A stretch of DNA of 64,000 nucleotides from positions 62,001 to 126,000 of the forward strand of contig JACPAV010000011.1 of assembly GCA_016180645.1 (NCBI GenBank). The letters run 5' to 3'. Under the pieces are notes generated by a model. That model worked only from the letters and a program-made list of their open reading frames with translations. It was not told where the DNA came from and made no database searches. This DNA is from Nitrospirota bacterium (GTDB taxonomy: Bacteria > JACPQY01). Shown here piece after piece: positions 18,504 through 56,604 of this stretch. Position 1 is the stretch's first letter. Each line of letters starts with the position of its first letter. A program made the translations under genes and the position numbers.

Positions 18504-21500
18504 TCAAGGCAAATTGATCACCGGAACGGGGGTGAGGCGGTAGGTGGTGGTGCCGTCACCGAGGACGCCGCTGTTATTGTTTCCCCAGCATTTGGCCGTG
18601 CCGTCGGTTAGAAGGGCGCAGGTGTGAGAGTTTCCTCCGGCCATCGATACGGCACTCGACAAAGACGTGACCGAGACGGGAGTCAAGCGGTTCAGGGTTG
18701 TCCCATCGCCAATCGTTCCGAAACCATTATATCCCCAGCATTTGGCCGTGCCGTCGGAAAGAAGAGCACAAACGTGGCTGCTCCCGCCGGATGCCGCCAC
18801 GGCGCCCGTCAGGGATGTCACAACGATAGGAAGGGAACGGTTGGTCGTTGTTCCGTCGCCCAGTTGGCCGGAACTGTTGTCTCCCCAACATCTCATAGAG
18901 CCGTCCGTGATGAGTGCGCAGGCGTGGCCGTTGCCGCCCGCCGTAATCGCCACGGCGTTCGTAAGCGAGGATACGGTTACGGGGGTGAGGCGCTGAAGCG
19001 TGGTGCCGTCGCCGACCTGACCATAGCTGTTCTTGCCCCAGCATTTTCCGGAGCCATCCGAAAGGAGGGCGCACGTGTGGTAGGAACTGGCGTTGATCGC
19101 GACTGCGTCGCTCAAGCTTGTCACCGTCGTAGGAGGGGCCTTGTCGATCGTGGACCCATCGCCCAGTTGGCCGTTCAAGTTCCAGCCCCAGCACTTGACC
19201 GTTCCGGCCGAAAGGAGGGCACACGCGTGACTCATGCCCAAGGTCATGGTTATGGCGCTACTGAGGGACGAAACAGCCGTGGGGATGGATCGATTTACAG
19301 TTGTTGCGTCTCCGATCTGCTTGGCGGCGTTATCGCCCCAGCATCGTGCCGTCCCGTCCGACCGCAACGCACAACTGAATTCGTAGCCTCCCGTAATCGT
19401 GACTACGCCACTGAGCGTCGAGACTGCGGTGGGCGTGATTCGGGTAACCGTTGATCCATCTCCAAGTTCGCCCTTGCTGTTGTTTCCCCAACATCTTGCC
19501 GTTCCATCCGAAATCACAGCGCAGGTATGAAACCCACCCGCAAAAATACCTTCGCGGAAGGGGCGGGCGGGGGCGCCGGAGGCGGTGCCTTCGTGGAGGC
19601 GGGGGAGCTTGACGCCCATTGGGCCGGCGGGCATGGAGACCGAAACAGGAGTGGTCTTGCTTGCGGTCGTCCCGTCTCCAAGCTGTCCGCTACTATTCAA
19701 TCCCCAGCATTTGACTGTCCCGTTGGAGGCGAGCGCGCAGGTGTGGTCGTTCCCTCCTGTGGCTGCCACCAAATCGCTGAGCGAAGAAACGGTCACCGGG
19801 TTCGTCTTGTTTGTGGTCGTTCCGTCCCCGAGTTGGCCCGAGGCGTTGTACCCCCAGCATTTGAGCGTGCCGTCCGAGAGGAGACCGCACGTATCGTTGC
19901 CTCCTACAATGACGGCCACGGAGTTTGTGAGGGAGGAAACGGCCACAGGGGTTGTCTTGTTTGCAGTCGTTCCGTCTCCGAGTTGGCCCGAGGCGTTGTA
20001 CCCCCAGCACTTGAGCGTGCCGTCCGAGAGGAGAGCGCAGGTGTGACCCCCAACCCCTGGCTCGCCCCCCCCCGCGACCACGACCACACCGGTGAGCGAA
20101 GAAACGGCCACGGGGATCGATTTGCCCACGGTTGTGCCGTCGCCGAGCTGGCCGGTATTATTCTTCCCCCAACACTGCACGGTTCCGTCTGAAATCAACG
20201 CACAGGTGTGAGCGTATCCTGCGCTGATCGCGACCGCTCCGGTGAGCGTGGAAACGGCCACAGGCGTTGTCCTCTGGGTCGAGGTCCCGTCGCCAAGAAC
20301 CCCTTCACTATTGGAACCCCAGCATTTGACCGTTCCATCCGAGCCCACAGCACAGGTGTGATATGTTCCATTGACCGCCACGACGCCGGTGAGACTGGAA
20401 ACAGCTACGGGTGTCGACTTATCCACCGTCGTCCCATCCCCGAGTCTGCCATCGGGGTTGAATCCCCAGCATCTCACCGTTCCATCTGCGAGGAGCACGC
20501 ATGTGTGATACAGCCCACCACCAAGTGCAGCGGCGCTCGTGAGCGTGGAGACGGCTACCGGCGTTGTCTTATTACCCGTTGTCCCGTCCCCCAGCGCACC
20601 TTCAAGGTTACGCCCCCAACACTTGACGGTTCCGTCCGAGGCCAGAACGCAAGTATGAGAATACCCGGCGGAAACAGCATGAGCGAAGCCGGTGGTGGAC
20701 CAAGTGAGGGCGGATTTTTCGACGGTGTTGGTGTCAACGTTCAGCGCTTCGTCTTTGGCGCGGACGACGTAGTAGACTTTTGATCCCTGGGTGAGTGATC
20801 CGTCGCCGTAGGTTGTAGCTCCCGCCGAGGTCGTGAACGTCGGGCTGAAACTTGTTTGACACGTCCCCGCCGTGGCGTTCCGACAGATCTGGTACACGAT
20901 CGCGCCGCTCGCGCTGACGTTGTCCGTCGCCGCCGCCCATGAAAGGTTTACGTTGGTGGCGGATGTCGACGTCGCGGAGGTGAGCCCGCCAAATGTGGGA
21001 GGAGTCGTGTCGGTGTTGATGGTCACGCCGTTGGATGCAACCCAAGCTCCCACGTTTCCCGCATTATCGACCGCTCGAACGCAGTTGTAGTAGGTTACGC
21101 TGTTTGTGAGGCTCAAGCCCGTCGAGTTCTTGGACGTGACGTTGCCTATGTTGGCCGTGGCCACCGTGTTCCCCGTGCAGCTCGTTGCCGTGCTGATATT
21201 GTAGTCGTAGCCGGCGATCCCGCTGTTGGAGTCGTTGAATCCGCTCCAATTCGCGTCCATGACCGTGGCGGAGGTTTGAATGGCAATGTCCGCCCCCGTG
21301 CCGTCGTTGACCGTTCCACCGGTCGGGAGAGTCGTTTCAACCTTGGCGGTATTGGCTGAGGAATAAGGTACGGAGTTGCCCACGTTGTCCGTCACAACGT
21401 ACTGGTACTGATAGCAATTGCCGTCGGCGACGCCGGTATCGTTCTGTGGCGACGCGCCGGGGTCGGTGGCAATCGTCGAGAATGCGCCGTATGCCCCACA

Positions 21501-29975: not shown

Positions 29976-29997
29976 GCTGAAATTGACGCGCTGCGCC

Positions 29998-30050
29998 ATG
30001 ATCCCATAGCCGTTCCATTCGCCGTACCCGAAGCGGAGCGGAGGGTGGTG
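29998..30050. repeat. Interspersed repeat, copy 1
   Basis: About 53 bp containing TTCCATTCGCCGTACCCG and AAGCGGAGCGGAGGG. A closely similar sequence (38976-39030) occurs inside the ttuA coding region, so this is a mobile or dispersed repeat family. Here it lies in the gap between two genes. Confidence 0.6.
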
Positions 30051-36305: not shown

Positions 36306-37139
36306 ATGCAAATCAGTGAGGGCACGGCGGTTTTGTTCTATCTGGATGCGCGCCGAACGTATCTGAAAACGGTCCATCCCGGGGACAAGCTTCACACCCA
36401 CAAGGGGATGATCTCGATGGACGATGCCATCGGCCACCCCTTCGGAGACTCCATTCGCACCCACCTCGGGAACACCGTCATTCTCCTGGAACCGACACTC
36501 GAAGACATGATGATGAAAATCCAGCGGCAGACCCAGATCATCTATCCCAAGGAGGCGGCCCTCATCATCCTCAAGGCCGGTGTCCTGAAAGGATATCGCG
36601 TTTTGGAGGTGGGATTCGGCTCGGGCGCTCTCACCATGGCGCTGGCGAATGCCGTGGGGGATACCGGAAAGGTCTACGCCTATGATCGTCGCGAAGACAG
36701 GATCGAGAAGGCCCTTCGCAATACGCGGTGGCTCAATCTCACCCACACGATCCAGTTCAAGACGGCCTCGATCCCGGACCGGTACGACGAATCGGATCTG
36801 GATGCGGCCATGGTGGATGTGCCTGAACCGTGGGAAGTGGTCGAACCTGTCTGGACCGCCCTTCGGGGCGGCGGACGCTGGGTGAGCCTGTCCCCCACGT
36901 ACAATCAGGTGGAGAAGACCGCTATCGCGTTGGGTCGAGGCGGGTTCATCTTCCTCGAGACGATCGAAATACTTACGCGGATCATTCTGGCCCGGGAAGG
37001 AAGAACTCGGCCGTTCGAGCGGATGATCGGGCACACGGCATTCCTGACCTTCGCCAGGAAGATCAATGAACGTCGAGCGGAGCCCGTCCCCGAGGTGCCG
37101 GCCGGAGAGGAATCGCCAGAGGCGGTCGAGCCCACATGA
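36306..37139 (+). CDS. trmI: tRNA (adenine-58-N1)-methyltransferase
   Basis: This methyltransferase has 277 residues and belongs to the TrmI family. An N-terminal beta domain is followed by LEPTLEDMMMKIQRQTQIIYPK (about 61-82), a segment diagnostic of TrmI, and by the SAM-binding motif LEVGFGSGALT (100-110). Later VDVPEPWE matches the catalytic-site region. It methylates N1 of A58 in the T-loop of tRNA with SAM. Its stop overlaps the start of the sulfur-carrier/RadC fusion by 4 nt, and ttuA, which thiolates U54 in the same T-loop, follows. In Thermus these two modifications act together to stabilise tRNA. Confidence 0.92.
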   Translation: MQISEGTAVLFYLDARRTYLKTVHPGDKLHTHKGMISMDDAIGHPFGDSIRTHLGNTVILLEPTLEDMMMKIQRQTQIIYPKEAALIILKAGVLKGYRVLEVGFGSGALTMALANAVGDTGKVYAYDRREDRIEKALRNTRWLNLTHTIQFKTASIPDRYDESDLDAAMVDVPEPWEVVEPVWTALRGGGRWVSLSPTYNQVEKTAIALGRGGFIFLETIEILTRIILAREGRTRPFERMIGHTAFLTFARKINERRAEPVPEVPAGEESPEAVEPT

Positions 37140-38110
37140 TCCGGGTGACGTTCAACCACAAGGTCCTGGAATTCGAGGGCTCCATGACCACCGGGCAGCT
37201 TTTGAAAAAGATGAATCTCCTCCCGGAAGTCGTTCTGGTCGCCAAGAATGGCGAAATCGTCACGGAAGACGAGTTCCTCCGCCCCGAAGACGAAGTCGAA
37301 ATTATCCGCGCCATTTCTGGTGGAGCGGATCCGGCAAGCCTGCCTCGTTCCAACTCCGTTCCCGGCCCCATCCCCGATGGGGCCCGCGTTTCCTATAGAA
37401 TCCCCATAAAAGATTGGCCCGATAGCGATCAGCCGAGGGAAAAGCTGATTCAAATGGGACCGGATTCTCTGAACGATGCCGAACTGCTGGCCATTCTGCT
37501 CCGCACGGGAGTGAAAGGCCTCAGCGCGGTGGACCTCGCCCGGCAGGTCCTCAAGGACGTGGGCGGATGGGCCGTGCTTGCCCGCTCCGATGCCGCCGAC
37601 TACCAAGGTGTGAAGGGCTTGGGGCCGGCAAAAATTGCCCAGATTCTCGCCGCGCTGGAAATCGGCCGCCGGGCGGCCCATGCTCCGAAGCCGGACGAAT
37701 TGTACATCCGCGGCTCCGGGGACGTTTTTCAACTTGTTTCTCCCAAGCTGCGGGACCTAAAGAAAGAAGTGCTCGACGTGCTCTTTCTCAATTCACGTAA
37801 TCATGTGCTGGCCCAGGAGCGCCTCAGCAGGGGAACCGTCAACCGGAGCAGCGTGTTCGCCCGCGAGATTGTGGAGCGCGCACTCCGCCGGGGCGCCGCG
37901 GCTCTGATTCTCATCCACAACCATCCTTCCGGAGATCCTGCGCCCAGCGCAGAGGACGAACGCGTGACCCAGGAAATGGTGTGGGCCGGTGAAATCCTCA
38001 ACCTGTGCGTTTTGGATCATGTGATCATCGGCGGGAACCGCCATTTCAGCTTTGCGGATGAGGGAAAGATCGAGGCCATGCGCTCGAAAGCCAGGGACAA
38101 ACGAAAATGA
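37136..38110 (+). CDS. ThiS/TtuB-like sulfur carrier fused to RadC-family JAMM protein
   Basis: This protein has 324 residues and two parts. Residues 1-63 are a beta-grasp sulfur-carrier domain (KVLEFEGSMTTGQLLKKMNL, VAKNGEIVTEDEFLRPEDEVEI) ending in AISGG, the Gly-Gly tail that is activated in ThiS, MoaD and TtuB. A 25-residue Pro/Ser linker follows. Residues of about 89-324 are a full RadC/UPF0758 protein: IKDWP start, HhH motif GVKGLGPAKIAQI (158-170), Glu 228, and the JAMM zinc motif HNHPSGDPAPSAED (His 261, His 263, Asp 274). No stop or credible internal start separates the parts. ATGA overlaps join it to trmI and ttuA. The protease could cut after Gly 63 to free the carrier; that is inference. 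Confidence 0.88.
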   Translation: MIRVTFNHKVLEFEGSMTTGQLLKKMNLLPEVVLVAKNGEIVTEDEFLRPEDEVEIIRAISGGADPASLPRSNSVPGPIPDGARVSYRIPIKDWPDSDQPREKLIQMGPDSLNDAELLAILLRTGVKGLSAVDLARQVLKDVGGWAVLARSDAADYQGVKGLGPAKIAQILAALEIGRRAAHAPKPDELYIRGSGDVFQLVSPKLRDLKKEVLDVLFLNSRNHVLAQERLSRGTVNRSSVFAREIVERALRRGAAALILIHNHPSGDPAPSAEDERVTQEMVWAGEILNLCVLDHVIIGGNRHFSFADEGKIEAMRSKARDKRK

Positions 38111-39270
38111 GATGTACCCCGTGCGGACAAAAGGCCATCGTTCACCTCCCAGCCTATCGTCTGCGATTGTGCAAAACGTGCTATCCCGCATGGTTCGAAA
38201 AACATACACAGCGGACGATCGAACGGCTGAAAATGTTCACGCGGCAGGATCGGGTCCTCGTTGCCGTCTCCGGCGGCAAGGACAGCCTCGGCCTCTGGCA
38301 CGCTCTTCTAAAACTCGGATACGAAACAGACGGGTTCTACATTCACCTGAGGATCCAATCCGATCACCGCGACGAGGGAGCACCCCCCCCCCCACCCTAC
38401 TCGGAGGACTCCCTGACGTTCGCCCAAGCCTATGCAGACCGGATCGGGAGGAAGCTCCACGTCGTCGACCTCCAGGAAACGCTCGGCTTCGGCATCCCGG
38501 AAATTCGCCGGGCCGCGCGTCGCCCGCCCTGTTCACCCTGCGGAACCATCAAACGCCACTACATGAACAGCGTCGCCATCGAGGGCGGATTCGCCGTCAT
38601 GGCCACGGGACACAACCTCGACGATGAGGTGGCAACGCTTTTCTCGAATACCCTGCGATGGGATATGGACTATCTATCACGCCAACACCCTGTCCTTCCG
38701 GCCGCGGAGGGCTTCGCGCGCAAAGTGAAACCCTTCTGCTTCTTCTCCGAGAAGGAAACGGCGCTATACGCCCGCGTGGAGGGGATCCCTTACGTGTACG
38801 ACGAGTGCCCTTTTGCGGCCGGCGCCACTTCGCTGCACATGAAAGACGTGATCAACCGGCTCGAACACGATTCTCCCGGGATGAAGCGGACCTTCCTGGC
38901 GAATTTCCTCAAAGCCAAGGATCGTCTCCCGACCGCCCCCAAACCGGAGATGCGCCCTTGCAAGGAATGCGGCGCAATGACCCCATCGCGATTCCACTCG
39001 CCGTCCCCGGAGCGGAGCGGAGGGGGCGGGGCAGATCCCCATGTAGAATCCGTTCGCCGTCCCGGTGCCGGTCCGAATGAATCTCCATCCACCGTCCCCG
39101 AAGGGGGCCGGAGCGAAGCGGAGCGGGGCGGGGCGCCCACTCCCGCGGAAGTATGCGCCTTCTGCCGCCTCCGGGACCTTACTCGGAACAAGGAAGCGGC
39201 AAGAGTGGAGGCGCTCCACAATCCGATCCCGCGCCCCATGACGACCGCCGAGGACGGCTCGGTTCCCTGA
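38107..39270 (+). CDS. ttuA: tRNA U54 2-thiolation enzyme TtuA
   Basis: This 387-residue protein is a TtuA-type thiolase. An N-terminal zinc finger (Cys 3, 6, 22, 25), PP-loop SGGKDS (55-60), and Fe-S ligand cysteines 142, 145 (CSPC) and 234 (DECPF) are in the order expected. A C-terminal zinc finger uses Cys 285, 288 and Cys 350, 353. Between these two pairs there are about 50 extra residues rich in Gly, Pro, Ser and Arg, encoded by a repeat element also found between genes at 29998. TtuA adenylates U54 and transfers sulfur from a TtuB thiocarboxylate. Its partner is presumably the carrier domain encoded just upstream. The start overlaps that gene by 4 nt. Confidence 0.9.
   Translation: MRCTPCGQKAIVHLPAYRLRLCKTCYPAWFEKHTQRTIERLKMFTRQDRVLVAVSGGKDSLGLWHALLKLGYETDGFYIHLRIQSDHRDEGAPPPPPYSEDSLTFAQAYADRIGRKLHVVDLQETLGFGIPEIRRAARRPPCSPCGTIKRHYMNSVAIEGGFAVMATGHNLDDEVATLFSNTLRWDMDYLSRQHPVLPAAEGFARKVKPFCFFSEKETALYARVEGIPYVYDECPFAAGATSLHMKDVINRLEHDSPGMKRTFLANFLKAKDRLPTAPKPEMRPCKECGAMTPSRFHSPSPERSGGGGADPHVESVRRPGAGPNESPSTVPEGGRSEAERGGAPTPAEVCAFCRLRDLTRNKEAARVEALHNPIPRPMTTAEDGSVP
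38976..39138. repeat. Repeat insertion inside ttuA
   Basis: 38976-39030 is about 80 percent identical by eye to the intergenic repeat at 29998-30050 (shared TTCCAYTCGCCGT, AGCGGAGCGGAGGG). A second related core, ACCGTCCCCGAAG followed by GGAGCGAAGCGGAGCGGGG, ends near 39138. The whole insert keeps the ttuA frame. Confidence 0.6.
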
Positions 39271-55235: not shown

Positions 55236-55442
55236 CTAGCCCCCCTGGACGGGGCGGACAATCTCGATCCGATCGCCCATTTGAATCCGCAGAGAACCCC
55301 ATCGCCCTTTCGGAATCACTTCGTCGTTCACGGCGACGGCCGTTCCCGATTGCTCGGGGGAGAGTTGGAGATTCCGGATTACATCCGACAGGACGGCATT
55401 CTCATCTACCGACACCATCTCACCGTTCACGGAAACGTCCAT
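55236..55442 (-). CDS. thiS: Sulfur carrier protein ThiS
   Basis: This beta-grasp protein has 68 residues. It begins [16 protein letters not shown] and ends VRPVQGG, the Gly-Gly tail that is adenylated and thiocarboxylated. It provides sulfur to ThiG. It is encoded between thiO and thiG. It is distinct from the carrier domain fused to RadC at 37136, so the organism has at least two such carriers. Confidence 0.92.
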
Positions 55443-55452
55443 GACCCCGCCC

Positions 55453-56604
55453 TCATGAATCCAGACGGCGGTTCGCGAACCGCATCGGCGAGAACGGCCG
55501 GAGTACATCCGGGCAGCGGCCGGTCGTCAGCAGTTCGCTCATCGCGTAAGCCGTGATAGGAGTGAGCAGGATCCCATGCCGGTAATGACCGGTGGCATAA
55601 AAGAGTCCCTGTACGTCCGTGCCGCCAAGCAAGGGCGCGTGGTCTCTGCTCCCCGGCCTCAGCCCGACCTGAATCTCCTCCAGATGCAGCTCATAGATCG
55701 CGGGCATGGCCTCCCATGCCCGTTGGAGCAGTTTCATGATCGGCCCGGCCGTGGGGAGTGTGTCGAATCCCATCTCCTCACTGGTTGCACCGACCATCAG
55801 GCGGCCATCGTCCTTCGGCGCCAGGTAGACGTCCGGTGCCCGGACGGCATGTTTGGGCCGGCACGCGTCGGACATCCTGAGTGTGAGAATCTGACCTTTA
55901 ACCGGGCGGACGGCCGGCGCGATGGCCGTGGGAATCCCCGCGATGTCGCGCGACCAGCAACCTGCGGCCACGACAACGGTCTCCGCCTCCATCATTTCCT
56001 CGCCGGCGCGAACCCCTCGCACGCGACCGTTCCTGATCGAGATCGATCGGACCGGAGTCTCCTCATGAATTTTCCCCCCTCGTGACTTTACGCCGCGGAT
56101 CAAGGCCTCGACCATCGCCCGGTTATTGACCTGGGCGTCACCCGGCATCCACACGGCGGCGCAGGTCCGCGGAGATAGAAGCGGCTCCCGCTCGCGCGCC
56201 ACCGCTCCGTCCAGCCACTCTGCGGCCAGTCCCACCCTCTCGCGGAATCGCATCAACCGCCGCAGCCGTTCGACATCATCGCGGTTGAGACCGATCATCA
56301 GGCTCCCGCTGCGATCCATCGCCACCTTCCTTCCCGAATCCTCTTCCAACTCCTGGATACACTGCGGGTACAAACGGAGGCTTGCCTCGGTGAGGCGCAG
56401 GAGGTCTTCCTCTTCAAATCCCGCCTCTGCGCCCGGGGCCAGCATCCCGGCGGCCACCCAACTCGCGCCACGACCCGCCCGGTCGCGTTCGAGAATTTCA
56501 ACGGATCGGCCCCGACGCGCGAGCTGCCAGCCGAGGGAGAGGCCGACGATTCCGCCTCCGACGATCACGATCCTCTCATGCTCCACGATGGTGCCCCCAG
56601 TCAT
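55453..56604 (-). CDS. thiO: Glycine oxidase ThiO
   Basis: This FAD-dependent amino-acid oxidase has 383 residues. The dinucleotide motif IVGGGIVGLSLG is near 15, ASWVAAGMLAPGAE near 45, and the C-terminal GLFYATGHYRHGILL is typical of ThiO/DadA-like enzymes. It produces the dehydroglycine used by ThiG under aerobic conditions, which implies an aerobic organism. It is the first gene of the thiO-thiS-thiG unit. No riboswitch was found before it. Confidence 0.92.
   Translation of the reverse strand: MTGGTIVEHERIVIVGGGIVGLSLGWQLARRGRSVEILERDRAGRGASWVAAGMLAPGAEAGFEEEDLLRLTEASLRLYPQCIQELEEDSGRKVAMDRSGSLMIGLNRDDVERLRRLMRFRERVGLAAEWLDGAVAREREPLLSPRTCAAVWMPGDAQVNNRAMVEALIRGVKSRGGKIHEETPVRSISIRNGRVRGVRAGEEMMEAETVVVAAGCWSRDIAGIPTAIAPAVRPVKGQILTLRMSDACRPKHAVRAPDVYLAPKDDGRLMVGATSEEMGFDTLPTAGPIMKLLQRAWEAMPAIYELHLEEIQVGLRPGSRDHAPLLGGTDVQGLFYATGHYRHGILLTPITAYAMSELLTTGRCPDVLRPFSPMRFANRRLDS

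Follow-up and report, generated by a model that had tools for sequence, protein, structure and literature searches.

A TtuB-type sulfur carrier fused to RadC in a tRNA T-loop modification operon of a Nitrospirota bacterium

RadC is a widespread zinc-protease-like protein; doubts about its link with DNA repair have left it with no agreed function. A 64,000-nucleotide stretch of a Nitrospirota genome (the window; this genome is called G000 below) contains a gene in which a ubiquitin-like (Ubl) sulfur carrier domain is followed by RadC, and this gene lies between trmI and ttuA, which encode two enzymes that modify the T-loop of tRNA. What does the carrier serve, and what could a RadC do for it? 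The reading frames, the coordinates and both 4-nt ATGA overlaps are confirmed in the sequence as an earlier note on this DNA gave them (Table 1), and so is the Gly-Gly pair at residues 62-63, followed by a full RadC/JAMM protein (Pfam ThiS, UPF0758_N and RadC JAB). By ORF reading trpE and trpG lie downstream of ttuA, from 39286. The fusion gene has neither a stop nor an ATG, GTG or TTG between codons 63 and 91, so that ordinary initiation does not appear to yield the carrier or RadC as a separate protein.

Table 1. Features of the trmI-fusion-ttuA region (window coordinates)
Feature	Position	Strand	Basis
trmI, tRNA m1A58 methyltransferase, 277 aa	36306..37139	+	Pfam GCD14 E 1.4e-32, TrmI-like_N; synteny in G001, G349, G387
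ATGA overlap, trmI stop / fusion start	37136..37139	+	sequence
ttuB::radC fusion gene, 324 aa	37136..38110	+	single ORF; 61% identity in G001
TtuB-like sulfur carrier domain, residues 1-63, AISGG end	37136..37324	+	ThiS E 1.5e-10; closest solved Ubls are TtuB 5ztb/5gha (sequence and fold)
Gly62-Gly63, predicted cleavage after Gly63	37319..37324	+	invariant in carrier alignment
Linker, residues 64-90, predicted disordered, no start codon	37325..37405	+	pLDDT <50 for 61-90; sequence
UPF0758_N (HhH-like) domain of RadC, residues 91-168	37406..37639	+	Pfam E 1.8e-26
RadC JAMM (MPN+) domain, residues 193-310; E211, H261, H263, D274	37712..38065	+	Pfam E 4e-40; 2qlc TM 0.92 over domain
ATGA overlap, fusion stop / ttuA start	38107..38110	+	sequence
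ttuA, tRNA U54 2-thiolase, 387 aa; PP-loop SGGKDS, CSPC and ECP cysteines, Lys equivalent to Thermus K137	38107..39270	+	phmmer to Thermus TtuA 5gha E 1.4e-75, aligned
Dispersed repeat copy within in-frame insertion, C-terminal Zn finger of ttuA	38969..39024	+	84% identical to 29990-30045; G001 TtuA lacks the insertion

The fusion is real, conserved and unusual. The sister genome G001 (assembly 84% complete) comes from another genus; there too trmI is followed by the fusion and then by ttuA, and a misassembly or a missed stop codon is therefore ruled out; absence of the fusion from relatives, which the earlier note had named as the observation that would count against it, is not what is found. 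The two fusion proteins are 61% identical; they differ in the linker but share the Gly-Gly, the two domains of RadC and the JAMM residues, and the fusion-ttuA junction in G001 is a GTGA overlap. These two genomes are the only representatives of their family, order, class and phylum in the comparison set. The fused RadCs of G000 and G001 group as a single clade (support 0.999) in a tree with 50 canonical RadCs, and they share substitutions that include loss of the His-Pro of the VHPRE motif, which is present in at least 45 of the 50 canonical proteins.

The closest match to the carrier domain among solved Ubl structures, both by sequence and by fold, is TtuB (5ztb and 5gha; TM 0.77-0.87 over TtuB). 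A profile search with this domain found a free ttuB adjoining ttuA in 19 other genomes; two of these operon arrangements, in the separate lineages of G349 and G387, have the order trmI-ttuB-ttuA with no RadC, and five more genomes have ttuB-ttuA and then trmI. The trmI/ttuB junction in G349 is the same ATGA, and its TtuB ends in AISGG-stop. These are unfused versions of the fusion operon, and because of them, and of the free ttuB genes beside ttuA, the first domain of the fusion is very likely the sulfur carrier for TtuA, with RadC joined onto the C-terminus of a TtuB. The "ThiS/TtuB-like" description given by the earlier note thus holds in its TtuB half and not in its ThiS half, as judged by profile, sequence and fold matches, and its view of a T-loop modification operon in which the carrier serves TtuA is supported. 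A role as the thiamine carrier was considered and rejected: the domain scores 32.4 bits against the ThiS model TIGR01683 (cut-off 37.45), and the separate ThiS gene at 55236-55508, to which the earlier note had pointed, overlaps the thiO and thiG genes and so is the thiamine carrier. No second TtuB was found in G000 at E ≤ 1e-3 in a genome search with a TtuB profile.

The third gene product matches Pfam TtuA_LIM_N and PP-loop, and its alignment with Thermus TtuA (5gha) covers the PP-loop, the catalytic cysteines and the lysine that corresponds to K137, whose role in the Thermus enzyme has been described (PMC3980101); its C-terminal finger carries an insertion. The NCBIfam TtuA model NF049949 matches it with E 1.5e-78 but at 264 bits, below the cut-off of 450, which may be lineage-specific because the model is named for Pyrococcus TtuA; the NcsA model gives a far lower score of 92 bits. 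The insertion in the zinc finger is in-frame, is about 50 codons long and holds a GC-rich dispersed repeat (Table 1), and similar sequence is found in antisense frames elsewhere in the genome. A repeat array in the window, at 18526-20507, contains a diverged 101-nt unit eleven times, spaced about 150 nt apart, and probably encodes a repeat protein. TrmFO makes m5U54, the substrate for thiolation, and a TrmFO is encoded in G000 on contig C3 (E 5e-190); on contig C33 lies the genome's single full-length ThiF E1, in fusion with a rhodanese. The thiolation pathway is thus complete as far as tested, yet it is not confined to this locus, since the carrier-activating E1-rhodanese and TrmFO are encoded elsewhere, which contradicts the earlier description of the operon as a self-contained module.

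In the known pathway the C-terminal glycine of the carrier is adenylated and then thiocarboxylated (PMC3980101), and in the fusion 261 residues follow Gly63. The Gly-Gly is invariant in the carrier alignment. Because the fusion holds the only TtuB found in the genome and its RadC lacks a separate start codon, a working carrier would probably require cleavage after Gly63. In AlphaFold models of the two homologues a pair of well-folded parts is connected by a disordered linker, and the Gly-Gly stands where this linker begins; the earlier note had suggested modelling the tail against the JAMM zinc site, and in these models (pTM 0.57 and 0.61) the tail has no fixed placement in the active site, on which they are silent because of the disorder of the linker and the low confidence between domains. 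Some free TtuBs also extend past the Gly-Gly, by 1-26 residues in eight proteins from eight other genomes (AE, V, GRAVREV, DHAVCQV, SSGD, RLP and two tails of 21 and 26 residues; L107, L108, L110, L111, L113, L114, L090 and L155), and the reading often runs into the ttuA start. A Prok-JAB JAMM protein is encoded in 7/7 tested genomes with a tailed TtuB, and trimming of TtuB by JAMM proteins may be a wider need; we only infer this, since three genomes with an untailed TtuB also have a JAMM and one has none.

Which protease would make the cut? The RadC part of the fusion is above the cut-off of the NCBIfam RadC models and has a complete E-Xn-H-x-H-x10-D site, whose residues are the same in all 50 canonical RadCs and in G001. 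We lean towards the earlier proposal that RadC itself cuts after Gly63; the intact JAMM site and the logical need for cleavage speak for it, whereas the choice of RadC over a second JAMM is the less secure part. The literature searched calls the function of RadC unknown, and no RadC peptidase activity was found in it. Loss of the VHPRE His-Pro in both fused RadCs could mean an altered activity. The second candidate is a stand-alone Prok-JAB JAMM protein of 142 aa (G000:C6:23489-23758, L150; E 7.6e-23), and it or another protease might cut the precursor after Gly63 while RadC is a passenger with an unrelated job. This is an unlikely but serious alternative: the C6 protein is a good Prok-JAB match, it is of the same kind as the genes that accompany the tailed free TtuBs, and the characterised Ubl cutters are of its type (PMC8832034, PMC3980101), but a C6-type gene was not found in the 84%-complete G001 assembly, where a Prok-JAB search (with a profile that would miss some RadCs) found the fusion as the sole JAMM. 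Moreover, the protein that the carrier has been joined with in this sulfur-carrier operon is RadC, and the fusion and the JAMM residues are kept in two genera. We note that G000 has further genes of these families: a Prok-JAB match, an E1-like ThiF match and a stand-alone RadC-JAB protein lie within 5 kb at G000:C20:93442-98426 (L003, L099, L151), possibly a Ubl-conjugation or defence locus, and a second UPF0758_N+RadC protein, which keeps VHPR, is encoded downstream of a glutamyl-tRNA synthetase-like gene (G000:C15:20101-20763; L002, L006).

Ubl domains are used for docking in other systems, and the carrier might accordingly stay attached and target RadC to TtuA, to the E1 or to TtuB conjugates, with ThiS or MoaD feeding TtuA instead. 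One report describes Ubl sulfur carriers as redundant in Thermococcus (PMC11323500), which would allow such a substitution. We regard this as distinctly improbable, given that the AISGG tail is invariant although a docking domain needs none, that the one further carrier observed belongs to the thiamine operon, and that an ordinary TtuB occupies the same place in the unfused operon.

The fusion is rare. It was found in 2 of about 390 genomes, G000 and G001 alone (two samples, each of about 386 genomes, that overlap and together comprise about 390 distinct ones), so that the search for other carrier-RadC fusions and their neighbours proposed by the earlier note yielded one further case, in the same operon. 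Among the best 80 RadC relatives in named genomes none has a carrier domain on RadC, the longest N-terminal stretch ahead of RadC being 80 aa, and neither ttuA nor ttuB was found near RadC at these 80 loci. The other long frames that contain a carrier were set aside as ThiS-ThiG, Ubl-cysteine synthase, threonyl-tRNA synthetase or apparent readthrough, and RadC is in none of them; in one, from G379 (L132:1038-2231), a Ubl ending in GGGG is on the N-terminus of cysteine synthase, and this would be another carrier-partner fusion that needs cutting. No link between RadC and TtuB or 2-thiouridine was found in the open-access literature searched. Occurrence in a single lineage is what a chance fusion by stop-codon drift, without functional meaning and with a general protease trimming the carrier, would give, but such an origin is most improbable for a protein that has kept its Gly-Gly, RadC domains and JAMM residues across two genera at 61% identity while its linker varied, and whose RadC parts form one well-supported clade with shared substitutions.

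The reading we prefer, with RadC as the releasing protease, can be put as follows. The fusion gene would give a precursor made of a TtuB-type carrier, a flexible linker and a RadC JAMM metalloprotease, and RadC would hydrolyse its own chain, or that of a neighbouring molecule, directly after Gly63 to leave a free Gly-Gly end. The E1-rhodanese encoded elsewhere would adenylate and thiocarboxylate the freed carrier, and TtuA would use its sulfur to convert m5U54 to m5s2U54, while A58 of that T-loop would be methylated by TrmI. Once released, RadC, with its intact JAMM site, would probably also strip TtuB from conjugated proteins, for example TtuA.

The fusion points to ubiquitin-like proteins as what RadC cuts. 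A carrier joined to RadC at precisely the place of ttuB is a concrete substrate hypothesis for RadC, and we know of no earlier one; zinc-dependent cleavage after Gly63 would be one clean and direct readout of RadC function, and bacterial sulfur transfer would gain a possibly self-processing ubiquitin-like precursor. That RadC in general is a protease or isopeptidase for ubiquitin-like sulfur carriers is improbable; were it so, the fusion would expose a function that is hidden where RadC stands alone, as it does in many bacteria.

The nearest known system is the TtuA/TtuB/TtuC pathway to s2T54 of Thermus thermophilus, which shares with the present one TtuA, a Gly-Gly carrier, an E1, and TrmI and TrmFO as partners. 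A JAMM protein there affects TtuB conjugates and the thiouridine level: its deletion made the conjugates aberrant and lowered thiouridine by about 50% (PMC3980101). In the Thermus-like genome G020, however, TtuB is a separate protein and the JAMM a separate Prok-JAB gene, whereas in G000 the carrier is fused to RadC. MoaD-MoaE is a second parallel, being a fusion with an N-terminal Ubl sulfur carrier in which a JAMM cut is needed to expose the glycine: DRJAMM and HvJAMM1 cut MoaD-MoaE or SAMP fusions, and DRJAMM leaves a C-terminal Gly on cutting MoaD-MoaE (PMC8832034). The cutter there is a separate protein, while TtuB::RadC has the JAMM as its fusion partner. For JABs that carry a fused ThiS or MoaD, a role of this kind was predicted by Iyer et al., who also described phage TAPI/TAPK Ubl-JAB pairs, with one TAPI::JAB fusion in an E. 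coli prophage, in which the JAB is predicted to release the Ubl at its last Gly (PMC1779556); these differ in belonging to tail assembly, with a lambda-type JAB and no sulfur carrier or tRNA enzyme. Compared with the RadC/UPF0758 family itself, the fusion has the same UPF0758_N and RadC-JAB domains, intact JAMM residues and the JAB fold of 2qlc, and it differs in its N-terminal TtuB domain, its changed VHPRE motif and its place in a tRNA-modification operon.
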